The notes under the pieces are model-generated. The model was not told the DNA's origin and ran no database searches. It saw only the letters and a list, made by a program, of their open reading frames with translations. A stretch of DNA of 6,953 bases from the NCBI GenBank assembly GCA_900551195.1, contig URVD01000094.1:1-6953 (forward strand), given 5' to 3'. The stretch comes from an uncultured Collinsella sp. (lineage in GTDB: Bacteria > Actinomycetota > Coriobacteriia > Coriobacteriales > Coriobacteriaceae). The position numbers were made by a program, and so were the translations under genes. Below, piece by piece: positions 1 through 6,944 of this stretch (the first letter of the stretch is position 1; each line of letters begins with the position of its first letter).

Positions 1-257
1 CCCTCGGCGATGAGCGCGCACTTGACGGGAAAGCCGGTACGCAGTGCCTCGGCGGCAGCACGACGACCTTCGATAAACTCGCCCTTGGGAACCTGAACAT
101 TGTCGCGGTTGCGATCTCGCTGCGAACGCGCAGCCTGGGCTTGGGAGCGCTCGCGCTGGCCCTTGGGAGTGGCAGCGCGGTCATTGCGGCGAATCGGACG
201 CGAGCCAGAAGCAGCCTGCTTGCCGCCGCGAGGCGCACGCTTGCGATTGTCGGCCAT
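1..257 (-). CDS. rlmB: RlmB-like 23S rRNA (guanosine-2'-O)-methyltransferase, N-terminal part (runs off left edge)
   Basis: Only the first 85 codons are in the window; the gene continues past base 1. Residues 1-55 are rich in Arg, Lys, Gln and Ala and look disordered and basic. The motif GEFIEGRRAAAEALR follows at about 59-73 and matches the start of the SpoU/TrmH-family substrate-binding domain (G-R-x-x-V-x-E-A-L). Family members of this type 2'-O-methylate G2251 in the P-loop of 23S rRNA using S-adenosylmethionine; the catalytic SPOUT knot would lie outside the window. The start ATG at 257 has an ideal AAGGAGG site at 265-271, 7 nt away. Position after cysS is the usual place for rlmB in Gram-positive bacteria, which supports the call. 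Long basic N-terminal extensions are known in actinobacterial RlmB proteins. Another TrmH-family 2'-O-methyltransferase is possible because the catalytic part is not seen. Confidence 0.82.
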   Translation of the reverse strand, partial: MADNRKRAPRGGKQAASGSRPIRRNDRAATPKGQRERSQAQAARSQRDRNRDNVQVPKGEFIEGRRAAAEALRTGFPVKCALIAE

Positions 258-264
258 AAAACGG

Positions 265-271
265 CCTCCTT
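265..271 (-). promoter_or_regulatory. Ribosome binding site of rlmB
   Basis: Minus-strand AAGGAGG, 7 nt before the ATG at 257. It lies about 20 nt downstream of the base of the long hairpin at 292-395, so it should be free when the hairpin is folded. Confidence 0.8.
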
Positions 272-291
272 AAATAGATAACGAACAAGAA

Positions 292-395
292 TCGACCGTC
301 CGAGCCACGGCACCTTGCCTTTCAATCGTTGGGCATGACCACCAGGTCTATGCCCCCCCTCTTTCAAGGCAATCTGCCGCACCTCGAACGGTCGA
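292..395 (-). ncRNA. Long structured RNA element between cysS and rlmB (leader or small RNA, family unknown)
   Basis: Read as minus-strand RNA, the 104 nt fold into one rod. 395-383 pairs with 292-304 (13 pairs, one G-U). After a G-G mismatch, 381-375 pairs with 306-312 (7 pairs, two wobbles). After a 2x2 loop, 372-366 pairs with 315-321 (7 Watson-Crick pairs). Then come GA/GA (365-364 with 323-322), two A-U pairs, and a second GA/GA (361-360 with 327-326). The tip is GGGCAU-A-GACC-UGGU-GGUC-AUGCCC at 355-331. On the plus strand the wobbles become A-C mismatches and the tandem G-A pairs become U-C, so the minus strand is the functional reading. There is no U-tract after the fold, so it is not an ordinary terminator. 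It could be a cis-regulatory leader of rlmB, an RNase III processing site, or a stable small RNA. It lacks the T-box signature and the SRP GGAA loop. Confidence 0.6.
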
Positions 396-401
396 CAAAT
401 A

Positions 402-1868
402 CTAGAGACTCTTAATACGAGTACCCGCGGCCGTATCTTCAATCGTCAGGCCCAGGTCCTTGAGCTGGTCGCGGATGGCGTCGGCCAGATCCCAGTTCTT
501 GGCGGCACGGGCCTCGGCACGGGCCTCGAGAATCTTGGCAGCGGCCTCGTCCACGTCGTCACCCGCGTAGGCAACCAAACCGGCGGCAACGCCCAGCAGG
601 CCCAGCGGCAACTCGACCTTGGGCTCGGGGAGCTCGACGCCAAACGTATCGAGCAGCTCGACCAGCGTATCGGCAGCAGCAAGCGCAGCGGCCTTGTCGG
701 CAGCATCGCCCGCCCGCTCCAGGTACTGGTTGCACTCGGTCACAAAGCCAAAGACAGCACCCATGGCACCGGCAGTGTTAAAGTCGTCGTCCATGCACTC
801 CTTAAAGGTGGCACGGGTCTCGGCGGCCTTGGCGGCAAACGCCTCGGATGCTGCCTCATCGGCATCGGCCGTCGCATGGTTCGCGGCCCAGCGCAGGTTC
901 TCGACCGTACCGGCGATACGCATGAGCGAGTTCTCGGCACCCTCCAGGCGCTCCCAAGAAAAGTCAAGCGGCGAGCGATAGCTCGTCTGCAGCATCAGCA
1001 GGCGCAGGGCCGCGGCAGAGTGCTGTTCGAGCACCTCAGCCAGCGTAAAGAAGTTTCCGAGCGACTTGGACATCTTCTCGCCGTCGACCAGCAGCATGCC
1101 CGTGTGCATCCAGGTGTTGGAGAAACCCTGGTGCCAGGCGCAGGTGGCCTGGGCGCACTCGTTCTCGTGATGCGGGAAGGCAAGGTCGGAGCCGCCGCCG
1201 TGGATGTCGATCGGGGTGCCCAGGTAGCGATGCACCATGGCGGCGCACTCGGTGTGCCAACCGGGACGGCCCTCGCCCCAGGGGCTCGGCCAGCTGGGCT
1301 CGCCGGGCTTGGCGGCCTTCCACAGGGCAAAGTCGAGCGGGTCGTTCTTGTCCTCGTTCTCCTCGATGCGCGCGCCAACCATAAGGTCGTCGATGTTGCG
1401 GCCCGAGACCTGACCATAGTTGGGATCGCTGCGCACGGCAAAGTACACGTCGCCGTTATCGGCGGCGTAAGCGTGGCCCTGCTCGATGAGCGTCTTGATC
1501 ATGGCGATCATGGGGCCGATCTCTTTGGTGGCGCGGGGGCGCACATCGGGATCGAGCACGTTGGCGGCGCGCATGACGCCGATGAACTTGTCGGAGAACT
1601 CCGTCGCGACCTCGGCGGCCGTTCGGCCCTGCTCGTTGGCGCGCTTGATGATCTTGTCATCGACATCGGTGAGGTTCTGGGCGAACGTGACCTCGTAGCC
1701 GCTCGCGATGAGCCAGCGACGAATCACGTCAAAGCTGATGAACGTGCGGGCATTGCCGATGTGGATGTTGTCGTAGACCGTGGGGCCGCACACGTACATG
1801 CGGACCTTGCCGGACTCGATGGGCTGGAACTCTTCCTTTTTATGGGTAGCGCTGTTGTAGATACGCAT
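402..1868 (-). CDS. cysS: Cysteinyl-tRNA synthetase
   Basis: A 488-residue class I aminoacyl-tRNA synthetase that activates cysteine with ATP and charges tRNA-Cys in the cytoplasm. Visible motifs are the Rossmann-fold signature HIGN at 36-39 and KMSKS at 265-269, the two ATP-binding elements. The four zinc ligands expected for substrate recognition are C27 (in YVCGPTVYD), C208 (in HTEC), H233 and E237 (in FPHHENE). The C-terminal half carries the helical DALR-type domain (DDFNTAGAM at 361-369) and the conserved tail around ARAAKNWDLADAIRDQL (453-469). Length is normal for the family. The ATG at 1868 follows the ispF stop by 3 nt, and its AAGGAG site forms the last sense codons of ispF, so translation is probably coupled. 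Nothing is missing or broken. Confidence 0.98.
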   Translation of the reverse strand: MRIYNSATHKKEEFQPIESGKVRMYVCGPTVYDNIHIGNARTFISFDVIRRWLIASGYEVTFAQNLTDVDDKIIKRANEQGRTAAEVATEFSDKFIGVMRAANVLDPDVRPRATKEIGPMIAMIKTLIEQGHAYAADNGDVYFAVRSDPNYGQVSGRNIDDLMVGARIEENEDKNDPLDFALWKAAKPGEPSWPSPWGEGRPGWHTECAAMVHRYLGTPIDIHGGGSDLAFPHHENECAQATCAWHQGFSNTWMHTGMLLVDGEKMSKSLGNFFTLAEVLEQHSAAALRLLMLQTSYRSPLDFSWERLEGAENSLMRIAGTVENLRWAANHATADADEAASEAFAAKAAETRATFKECMDDDFNTAGAMGAVFGFVTECNQYLERAGDAADKAAALAAADTLVELLDTFGVELPEPKVELPLGLLGVAAGLVAYAGDDVDEAAAKILEARAEARAAKNWDLADAIRDQLKDLGLTIEDTAAGTRIKSL

Positions 1869-4311: not shown

Positions 4312-4408
4312 TGAGGGAGTAGTCGCGTGACCGGGTTCGCCTCCGGTGGCGCGGCAAGTCAACATACTGGCCGACACGGTCTGGCTTGCCTTAATGAACG
4401 AGACTCGT
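4311..4408 (+). promoter_or_regulatory. yybP-ykoY manganese riboswitch upstream of mntP
   Basis: The leader contains the family hallmarks: GGGAGTAG (4315-4322) on the 5' side, TCAACATACT (4359-4368) in the second arm, and a closing GAGACT (4400-4405). Helices that can be drawn are ATGAG 4311-4315 with CTCGT 4404-4408 (P1); CGCG 4324-4327 with 4350-4353, capped by ACCGG 4330-4334 with CCGGT 4343-4347; and GCAAG 4354-4358 with CTTGC 4385-4389, with a short hairpin inside. In this family Mn2+ docks the two arms through the conserved loops. The 3' strand of P1 lies inside the 5' arm of the terminator at 4402-4445, so the bound aptamer and the terminator exclude each other. The gene controlled is an Mn2+ exporter, as in many bacteria. 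Confidence 0.9.
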
Positions 4409-4500: not shown

Positions 4501-5079
4501 ATGGGACTCGTAGAGCTCGTGCTGCTCGCCATTGGCCTTTCGATGGACGCCTTTGCCGTATCCATCTGCAAGGGCCTTGGCATGAAGAAGATCAACCTTA
4601 AGGTCGCCGTAGTGCTCGGCCTGTTCTTTGGCGGCTTTCAGGCCGGCATGCCCGTAATCGGATGGGCGCTCGGCAGTCAATTCATGGGCATCATCGGGCC
4701 CATCGACCACTGGATCGCCTTTGTCCTTTTGGCCTTTATCGGCGGCAAGATGCTGTGGGAAGCCTTTACCGAGGACGAGGATGAAGGCGACGACAAGGAT
4801 GCCGAAAAGATTGACCTGGGCGAGTACCTGATCCTCGCCATCGCCACCTCAATCGACGCCCTAGCCGTAGGCATCTCATTTGCGGCGCTCTCGGTTGACA
4901 TCGTTCCCGCTGTATCGCTTATCGGCGTCACAACGTTTATCTTCTCCGTCGCCGGCGTAGCGATCGGCCACACCTTTGGCGCGCGCTACGAAAAACCTGC
5001 CACCATCGTGGGCGGCGTCGTGCTCATTCTCATCGGCCTCAAGATTCTGCTTGAGCATCTGGGGATTTTGGCGCTGTGA
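4501..5079 (+). CDS. mntP: Manganese efflux pump MntP
   Basis: A 192-residue inner-membrane protein that exports Mn2+ and protects against manganese overload. It has six predicted membrane segments in two three-helix repeats (DUF204/MntP family). Repeat one carries GLSMDAFAVSICKG (12-25, D16) and repeat two ATSIDALAVGIS (115-126, D119); these aspartates sit in the membrane and are the likely metal-path residues. GGFQAGMPVIGWALG (44-58) and the HWIAFVLLAFIGGKM block also match the Escherichia coli protein. A strongly acidic cytosolic loop, EDEDEGDDKDAE (91-102), joins the repeats. The ATG at 4501 gives the normal family length and a strong ribosome binding site. Expression should rise with Mn2+ through the upstream riboswitch and terminator. 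A short hairpin overlaps the stop codon (5067-5086) but has no T-run. Confidence 0.96.
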   Translation: MGLVELVLLAIGLSMDAFAVSICKGLGMKKINLKVAVVLGLFFGGFQAGMPVIGWALGSQFMGIIGPIDHWIAFVLLAFIGGKMLWEAFTEDEDEGDDKDAEKIDLGEYLILAIATSIDALAVGISFAALSVDIVPAVSLIGVTTFIFSVAGVAIGHTFGARYEKPATIVGGVVLILIGLKILLEHLGILAL

Positions 5080-5207: not shown

Positions 5208-5639
5208 GTGAATACCCTTCCCATCACCACACCGCGCCAAGCTGGCATCTACGTGCGCCAGGCACGCGAGGCTCAGGGTCTCACCCGTGCCGCCCTCGCC
5301 AAAACGGCCAGTGTTTCAGAGCGCCTGCTCGCATCGCTCGAGCTAGGAGACGCCACCGGCATTCGACTCGACAAGTTGCTGTCCGTCTTTAACGCACTCG
5401 GCATAGGTCTCTTTGCGCAAAGCGATAACGACTCCATCGCATCGCCCTCCGAACATCCGACGACGAAAGCGGACCTCCCTATCGCGAACTCGAATGCCCT
5501 GCCCAAGCCAAGTGTAGGCAGACGACCCGCCCGACAAGGAACGCCATCTTCCTATGGTGCCTTGCTGGCCCAAATCGCAGCCGAGCAAGGCCTTTCCGAC
5601 ACTTCAGACCTCTCCTTTGGCTGTAAGGTTGTGAAATAA
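5208..5639 (+). CDS. hipB: HipB-like XRE-family antitoxin and autorepressor
   Basis: A 143-residue protein with an N-terminal helix-turn-helix domain (about 10-70). IYVRQAREAQGLTRAALAK forms helices 1-2, VSERLLASLELG (36-47) covers the recognition helix, and RLDKLLSVFNALGIGLFA is the typical HipB closing block. Such proteins bind HipA kinase, hold it inactive and repress the operon. The start is GTG at 5208, with TAGGAG about 6 nt upstream. Residues 72-143 form a longer tail than in E. coli HipB (about 88 residues): a Ser/Pro-rich stretch, a short basic patch GRRPARQ (104-110) and a possible helix ALLAQIAAEQGL (118-129) before a hydrophobic C terminus. The tail may help bind the toxin or be a degradation signal; neither can be seen directly. 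The stop codon abuts the hipA ATG. Confidence 0.85.
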   Translation: MNTLPITTPRQAGIYVRQAREAQGLTRAALAKTASVSERLLASLELGDATGIRLDKLLSVFNALGIGLFAQSDNDSIASPSEHPTTKADLPIANSNALPKPSVGRRPARQGTPSSYGALLAQIAAEQGLSDTSDLSFGCKVVK

Positions 5640-6944
5640 ATGGCAGAGATGGAGCTTGCGACCCTCATTTGTGGCGAAATCGCAGGCACTCTCCGGCAAG
5701 ACGAGCATGGACTCTGCAGCTTTGTATACGTCCCAACCTATCGCGGGGCACCGCTATCGCTAACAATGCCGCTTTCCAATCGCACGTATGGCCATAACAT
5801 CGTCCGCCCGTTCCTATTTGGCCTTTTGCCCGACAGCCAAGAGCAGCGTCGCGCTATTGCCGCCGAGCATGACGTTGCATCCAACAACCCCGTCGCCCTC
5901 TTGTGCCATATCGGTCTTGACTGCGCAGGGGCCGTTCAGTTTTGTCGAACCGATCAATTAGGCGCCGCCCGCGGCAGGGTCTCGGCATACCGCCCGCTTA
6001 CCGATTCTCAAATCGCTCACAAGCTCAAAGCAATTCGCGATGAGGAAAGAGAGACATGGATGGGCTCCAACGAAAGCTGGTCCCTGGGCGGCAACCAAGG
6101 CAAATTTGCACTAGCTTGGCATGATGGCCAATGGTGCGAATGTCTAGGGTCATCCCCCACTACCCATATCTTCAAAAATGGTGTCGTTGGGTTCAAACAT
6201 CAGGCCTTAAACGAATTCGTCTGCATGAAAACGGTTCGGCGTGTTGGCATTCCAACTGCCAACGTCTCCTATTGCACATTTGAAGACGAAGCCGCGCTCG
6301 TCGTTGAACGGTACGACAGAATTGTCAATAGCAGCGGAAATATCGAAAGGCTGCATCAGGAGGACTTTTGCCAGGCGCTCGGTGTATTGCCAAGCCAGAA
6401 ATACACCGCCGACGGAGGACCAACCACACGAGACATCCAAGAACGACTGATTAACACAGTCCCCCACCACATGAATCTTGTGCTTTTTACCTATATGTTG
6501 TTCTATAACGCCATTATCGGAGCGCCTGACGCACACGCTAAAAACTACTCGCTCATCCTAGGTAAAGGCACAAACGCAGCGCTCGCACCCATGTACGATG
6601 TCGCATCGGGCTTGGCGTATGAGCGCATGCGACGTCGGGCACGCCTTGCTATGAGCGTTGGCGGCGAAAATCGTGTGGGGCGCATCGGTCCAGGTGCTAT
6701 CCGCCGATACCACGGTATGGGCGACCCCGCGCTGGAGGCGGCGCTCACCGATGCCGGGCTATCCGAGAAGTTTTGCTTTGCGACCATGATGGACCTCGCC
6801 TACGAGGTGCCCATTTGCATGGAAGAGATCATGGACGAATACGCCGACCTGCCCGGCATGGCGGACCTGCGCGAGCATATGCTCGGCCCCGTCCGCGAAA
6901 ACTGCCAGCGAACCCTCGACCTCATCAGGGCGGATATGGGCTAG
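5640..6944 (+). CDS. hipA: HipA-like serine/threonine kinase toxin
   Basis: A 434-residue protein of full HipA length. Its N-subdomain (about 1-105) carries APLSLTMPLSNRTYGH and FLFGLLPDSQEQRRAIA, then NNPVALLCHIGLDCAGAVQF. The kinase part has the P-loop-like SLGGNQGKFAL (148-158), where S148 matches the autophosphorylated Ser150 of E. coli HipA. It also has PTTHIFK with K179 as the likely ATP-binding lysine, the catalytic GAPDAHAKNYS with D297 and N302, and MYDVAS with D320 as the metal-binding Asp. All key residues are present, so the toxin looks active. HipA phosphorylates an aminoacyl-tRNA synthetase (GltX in E. coli) and causes growth arrest and persistence; the target here is unknown. 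Translation begins at the base after the hipB TAA and is probably coupled. Codons such as AGA, TTA and CTA are used more than in the left operon, suggesting transfer. Confidence 0.92.
   Translation: MAEMELATLICGEIAGTLRQDEHGLCSFVYVPTYRGAPLSLTMPLSNRTYGHNIVRPFLFGLLPDSQEQRRAIAAEHDVASNNPVALLCHIGLDCAGAVQFCRTDQLGAARGRVSAYRPLTDSQIAHKLKAIRDEERETWMGSNESWSLGGNQGKFALAWHDGQWCECLGSSPTTHIFKNGVVGFKHQALNEFVCMKTVRRVGIPTANVSYCTFEDEAALVVERYDRIVNSSGNIERLHQEDFCQALGVLPSQKYTADGGPTTRDIQERLINTVPHHMNLVLFTYMLFYNAIIGAPDAHAKNYSLILGKGTNAALAPMYDVASGLAYERMRRRARLAMSVGGENRVGRIGPGAIRRYHGMGDPALEAALTDAGLSEKFCFATMMDLAYEVPICMEEIMDEYADLPGMADLREHMLGPVRENCQRTLDLIRADMG

Follow-up and report, generated by a model that had tools for sequence, protein, structure and literature searches.

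Genes and predicted structure in the cysS-rlmB gap

The window, that is the whole stretch of 6,953 nucleotides analysed here, comes from an uncultured Collinsella sp. and carries cysS and the start of rlmB on its minus strand (Table 1); the rlmB piece has no Pfam match. On the plus strand, a sub-threshold match to the yybP-ykoY manganese riboswitch (4355–4388; 19.6 bits, gathering score 45) precedes mntP (4501–5079), a plausible position in front of an MntP-family manganese exporter. A hipBA-like pair, consisting of an HTH protein and a HipA-family kinase, occupies positions 5208–6944 of the same strand.

Table 1. Features of the cysS-rlmB region of the window
Feature	Position	Strand	Basis
Rod with outer stem, one copy of the dispersed repeat	291..396	-	fold
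Core matching covariance model R1 at 92 bits (the window copy being among the ten R1 training sequences)	301..386	-	model match
Tandem G.A modules, 5' side of two (GA-AA-GA)	360..365	-	sequence; A5 columns 24-31
Tandem G.A modules, 3' side of two (GA-UU-GA)	322..327	-	sequence; alignment
GUGC of tandem U.G/G.U wobble, partner GUG 306-308	379..382	-	columns 6-97, 7-96
cysS, stop codon 5 nt from outer stem	402..1868	-	
rlmB start, cut by window	3..257	-	name from annotated C. aerofaciens record

The gap between the cysS stop codon (402) and the called rlmB start (257) measures 144 nt. Positions 270–420 of the minus strand fold into a rod that runs from 396 to 291 and consists of three helices (14, 7 and 7 pairs) capped by a tip of 10 pairs. 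Its minimum free energy is -72.1 kcal/mol (z -7.52), a stability that was reached by none of 200 shuffled controls. The minus-strand rod described in the initial annotation was thereby upheld, as was the location of its G-A modules at 365-360 and 327-322; tandem U.G/G.U wobbles could likewise be read from the sequence of that strand. An extra G disturbs the third G.A module of this copy. Two weak terminator-like patterns on the minus strand (302–282 and 311–295; 0.2 expected) could represent an alternative fold of the window copy, and no promoter-like pattern was found between positions 200 and 480. The Rfam search of the window returned nothing at gathering score, and that of region 200–480 nothing up to an E value of 10, in agreement with the earlier failure to assign the element to a known RNA family.

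A dispersed repeat family of Coriobacteriia

The 104-base structure is a member of a dispersed, mosaic palindromic repeat family of Coriobacteriia. Our model R1 was built from ten copies and comprises 36 pairs, with purine.purine positions entered as pairs, and a core of 85 model positions. In a starting sample of 80 cysS loci the R1 rod was present behind cysS in only 23, namely in all 18 loci with a CysS identity of at least 98% and in 5 of the remaining 62. The cysS gap of L002, L008 and L010 harbors the window's rod in opposite orientation, that of the L001 type a different rod, and that of L017 and L050 two rods in tandem. At E≤0.001, ten whole genomes contained 35, 39, 43, 9, 1, 23, 3, 21, 19 and 43 matches to R1, and of 197 genomes from the class, 68 had at least one such match; since 22 candidates were scored per genome in the latter survey, its copy counts are floors. 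A single one of 72,556 plasmid records matched, a Collinsella record, and phage records gave no match to positions 280–402 of the window. When 20 loci with long-form copies were compared with Rfam, one tRNA was the only hit, and the three matches obtained with one long copy at E≤10 were all far below gathering.

The cysS-gap survey together with the tens of copies present elsewhere in rich genomes led us to reject an RNA specific to the cysS-rlmB operon, and the lack of an Rfam match at gathering speaks against a known RNA family. Of the original reading, the part describing a structured, covarying element outside Rfam thus stands, and the part confining it to one operon is not supported. A short peptide encoded by the rod was considered by eye and dropped because reading frames are not kept. 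No description of the family was found in open-licence PMC text, including text of PMC2267715 and PMC8040213 (as distinct from the supplementary candidate tables of the latter). More generally, a covarying intergenic structure may be a dispersed repeat instead of an operon-specific RNA.

Covariation, purine modules and strand stability

An alignment of 77 copies (76 distinct), with training copies and copies from related genomes among them, was fitted to the model. The stems covary: cells in which both sides of a pair had changed numbered 425, compared with 139.8 (sd 8.3) in shuffled alignments, none of 500 shuffles reached 425, and slid controls gave 30–58. At least one both-side change was seen in 29 of the 36 pairs, compared with 19.0 after shuffling, some of the 29 being noncanonical positions with few both-side-changed cells. 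On the strand that bears the G.A pairs (the G.A strand), the first module reads G.A and A.G in 75 of 76 copies. The next two modules have A.G in 70 and 69 copies and G.A in 56 (G.G in 13) and 69; the tandem U.G/G.U wobbles occur in 64 and 67 of the 76 copies. In the larger genomes G.A modules were seen by eye at different spacing, so that the G.A positions behave as modules. An inner G.A module swapped between the two arms was also noted by eye (L043 4472-4558, G172:C1:519033).

Of the two strands, the G.A strand has the more stable fold, with -66.7 versus -53.4 kcal/mol under RNA parameters (better in 73 of 75 copies) and -33.9 versus -28.5 under DNA parameters (75 of 75). Among ordinary pairs outside the conserved wobbles, 114 distinct copies showed 60 G.T and 38 A.C on the G.A strand, which is a weak strand signal; with a ratio of only 60 to 38, we rejected wobble asymmetry as proof of an RNA on one strand. 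The outer stem pairs preferentially with its own flank (mean score 6.1 versus 2.2 when cross-paired), the gain beyond the inner 8 nt being small (4.1 versus 3.3), and some outer stems include the stop codon of the host gene.

Long form, boxes and turnover

In 36 of 75 copies from three genomes, as judged with a loose pattern, the boxes CGACGCTGC and TCGCTG enclose the rod. A hairpin termed H1 (GTTnCG..CGnAAC) usually follows the stop codon immediately and a tail comes after, this long form measuring about 190 nt in total. The layout is the same in the larger genomes, five of which contained 126 occurrences of CGAYGCTGCG-N(93-118)-CTCGCTGA and none of the reversed control pattern. A rod-less parent, in which a single CGCTG would link H1 to the tail, was absent among the 68 H1-plus-box matches listed.

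Turnover was read by eye at two orthologous sites (51 loci). Behind the first gene, 15 of 30 loci carry an element of one of several rod types, 2 a truncated one and 4 only a box remnant, while the 9 loci without an element are the more distant ones. Behind the second gene, 14 of 21 loci have an element, 4 a truncated one and 1 none, the remaining 2 being cut by the contig end. At orthologous sites of close relatives, rods are thus swapped, truncated or lost, and this fast turnover suggests that an individual copy is dispensable. In L259, L287 and L264 the H1 or tail module occurs two or three times. The dispersed, intergenic module combinations seen by eye (tandem rods, duplicated H1 or tail modules, truncations) are those of a BIME-like mosaic.

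Position and orientation relative to host genes

Genes were called with a purpose-built small caller based on codon usage. Removal of 36 opposite-strand or overlapping matches from 187 model matches left 151, which were reduced by flank similarity to 75, with some orthologous copies remaining. Of these, 63 lie between co-directional genes, with the G.A strand antisense in 59 of them and sense in the other 4; 10 placements were convergent, none divergent and 2 undetermined, and no copy overlapped a called gene. When 75 of the 78 matches in G006, G149 and G172 were examined (three from G006 being left out), 56 were co-directional with 51 antisense and 5 sense, 18 convergent and 1 divergent. Both co-directional sets stem from Collinsella and relatives and overlap. 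Inspection of 30 of the 119 matches in six larger genomes placed 27 between co-directional genes (26 antisense, 1 sense) and 2 between convergent ones, while 1 overlapped a called open reading frame, as did two of 20 further regions.

A check that is independent of the gene caller was provided by NZ_OY725717.1, where, in four annotated stretches picked around known matches, all seven matches are antisense to the preceding annotated gene and lie 8, 14, 25, 45, 49, 50 and 50 nt behind its annotated stop. The hosts include amt, cysS, hisF, queA, an SDR gene, lysS and an M20 peptidase gene. This record (L411; 899,693 bp) is labelled C. aerofaciens plasmid 6; it is probably a piece of the chromosome because it carries rlmB-cysS-ispF-ispD-disA, tuf and ribosomal protein genes.

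Copies of the repeat thus sit just behind stop codons, with the G.A strand antisense to the host gene in nearly fixed orientation, and many are located between close co-directional genes such as hisF-hisI or an amt-glnK-like pair. The stop codon sequence itself was rejected as an insertion target, since host genes (50 TAG, 44 TAA, 10 TGA; n=104) and other genes (83, 69, 13; n=165) do not differ in stop usage (p 0.86). The first paired base lies within 15 nt of the stop in 61 of 61 copies, a figure that comes without a control and was not used as evidence.

With the G.A strand antisense to the preceding gene in most copies, the selection on minus-strand RNA that had been proposed for the window does not generalize. 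The window rod is one copy of the dispersed repeat in the rare orientation. It is the L002 rod reversed between its arms, suggesting that a rod was flipped in place between inverted arms; the more stable G.A form would then lie on the cysS-rlmB mRNA.

Replication direction

The boxes of five larger genomes follow the direction of the replication fork in 119 of 126 cases, fork direction being set from dnaA and the midpoint, with one contig taken as 3.9 Mb; three of the exceptions fall in the final 12% ahead of the midpoint. Of 241 genes sampled from one of the five genomes, 170 are co-oriented with the fork, and the difference has a p value of 1.7e-11 if this fraction held for all five genomes. 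In Collinsella, only 4 of the 56 co-directional hosts run against the fork, compared with 59 of 259 genes sampled from G149 (p 0.002). Replication strand as the sole cause of orientation was rejected because in all four of these head-on hosts the G.A strand is antisense and thus follows the gene. The fork bias may reflect hosts that are themselves strongly co-oriented genes, or replication may take part.

Comparison with known repeats

The repeat most resembles REP/BIME and BOX elements but is set apart from them by its length, its strict orientation and its conserved purine modules. In the passages compared, REP/BIME are dispersed intergenic palindromes that form mosaic clusters in co-directional or convergent gaps near the 3' ends of open reading frames (PMC3733652, PMC2817692), and the Coriobacteriia repeat shares their dispersal, palindromic nature, mosaic clustering and placement at gene 3' ends. 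A REP is described there as a palindrome of 20–40 bp tagged GTAG or CGTC (PMC3733652), whereas the core of the repeat covers 85 model positions and its long form about 190 nt, its orientation to the host gene is nearly fixed and its G.A modules are conserved. CGTC was found by eye inside the rod and not as an end tag. The passages on pneumococcal BOX portray a modular structured repeat whose modules may be absent or repeated and some copies of which are transcribed, and in this the two are alike; BOX mirrors coding bias, the leading strand carrying 60.8%, and is enriched in convergent gaps, whereas a fixed place behind stop codons is not described in those passages (PMC3049150).

Neither a target-site duplication nor a parent transposon was found for the repeat, the 51 orthologous loci gave no clean empty/filled pair, and eight regions with two copies each enclose ordinary genes, as judged by eye. 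MITE-type repeats such as ERIC, Correia and RUP are palindromic and intergenic and measure about 100–200 bp. The Coriobacteriia repeat is similar in these respects but differs by outer arms that vary from copy to copy.

Possible function and spread

We give an even chance to the model that the family is a dispersed mosaic repeat maintained behind stop codons, where it forms a putative hairpin in the 3' end of the host mRNA. Each copy would be non-autonomous and might spread or be exchanged by recombination between copies or by some enzyme, misplaced or misoriented copies being purged by selection. Once transcribed, the hairpin would hold up 3'-to-5' exonucleases and possibly ribosomes at termination, by analogy with REPs of E. 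coli, and the repeat may be kept at mRNA 3' ends for end protection or slower termination. For REPs close to stop codons of E. coli, such slowing of 3'-to-5' exonucleases, and possibly of terminating ribosomes, is reported in the passages of PMC12306157 that we compared, and those of PMC3049150 make BOX a precedent for structured, partly transcribed repeats. That orientation follows the genes speaks for a role tied to transcription. By contrast, better folding of the antisense strand and polarity along the fork point to a step involving single-stranded DNA; a function in mRNA leaves it unaccounted for that the G.A strand, which folds better and bears the wobbles, is antisense in most copies. 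If the model is right, dozens of genes in a common gut lineage carry a repeat system of conserved structure that is apparently undescribed and obeys a placement rule (behind the stop codon, one orientation) absent from the REP and BOX passages compared. Both the delivery and upkeep of a non-autonomous hairpin at gene ends and the effect of G.A-rich rods on mRNA ends would become directly testable.

A possible but rather unlikely alternative is a selfish REP-like element whose G.A strand is moved as single-stranded DNA by a Y1/RAYT-type or other enzyme and which has no function in mRNA. Such an origin would fit the better folding of the G.A strand with DNA parameters in 75 of 75 copies, the mosaic clusters and turnover, and the fork polarity (119/126). 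Y1_Tnp genes, moreover, occur in 48 of the 68 genomes with the element and in 34 of the remaining 129, a hand count from two lists taken as the same draw and confounded by kinship, and in 14 of 17 element genomes in another count. Against it, none of 30 Y1_Tnp loci contained the element at E≤0.1 (one chance-level match had an E of 0.35), and G078, G082 and G141 have at least 10–12 copies with no Y1_Tnp found. In addition, several RAYT-like genes are flanked by another palindrome, and orientation tracks the gene and not the fork in the four head-on co-directional cases. A RAYT link was rejected: Y1_Tnp is common in element genomes, yet 0 of 30 loci hold a copy. We found no mobilising enzyme for the repeat.

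It is tempting, if speculative and on balance improbable, to imagine a class-wide element of Coriobacteriia with insertion or exchange machinery of its own that puts a G.A-zippered hairpin just behind stop codons, in an orientation fixed by the gene, and swaps rods like cassettes between CGACGCTGC and TCGCTG. If true, this would be a new kind of site-targeted mobile hairpin decorating mRNA ends.

A polar chromosome mark or a transcription terminator in which folding is incidental would account for fork polarity and nearness to stop codons, but we consider it quite unlikely in view of the long covarying structured sequence, the many copies within close co-directional pairs (hisF-hisI, amt-glnK-like) and the Collinsella copies that follow head-on genes. 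Even less can be said for a distinct antisense RNA made from the G.A strand and acting on the 3' end of the host gene: this strand is stably folded and antisense in most copies, but window positions 200–480 are devoid of a promoter-like pattern, the window copy is oppositely oriented, and copies are gained and lost in a mosaic fashion.

Integron attC sites lie behind genes in fixed orientation and have a folded bottom strand. Although the repeat resembles them in these three features, including its nearness to stop codons, an attC-kind recombination site marking mobile gene cassettes is highly improbable, as the neighbors are ordinary chromosomal genes without a cassette array and the integron integrase model TIGR02249 exceeded its cut-off in 0 of 20 genomes (and likewise in none of the 14 control genomes), with weak generic recombinase matches in 20 of 20.

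In REP systems, according to the passages compared, two inverted copies of the repeat border the RAYT gene (PMC2817692), an arrangement that the Coriobacteriia repeat showed at E≤0.1 in none of the 30 Y1_Tnp loci. Eight of 27 loci (L190, L191, L192, L193, L199, L204, L205 and L206) have a RAYT-like Y1 gene with GGGGAC/GTCCCC within about 200 nt on both sides, a count made without a shuffled control. These motifs appear to be the genuine REPs that go with the Collinsella RAYTs, and motifs of this type often adjoin rods.
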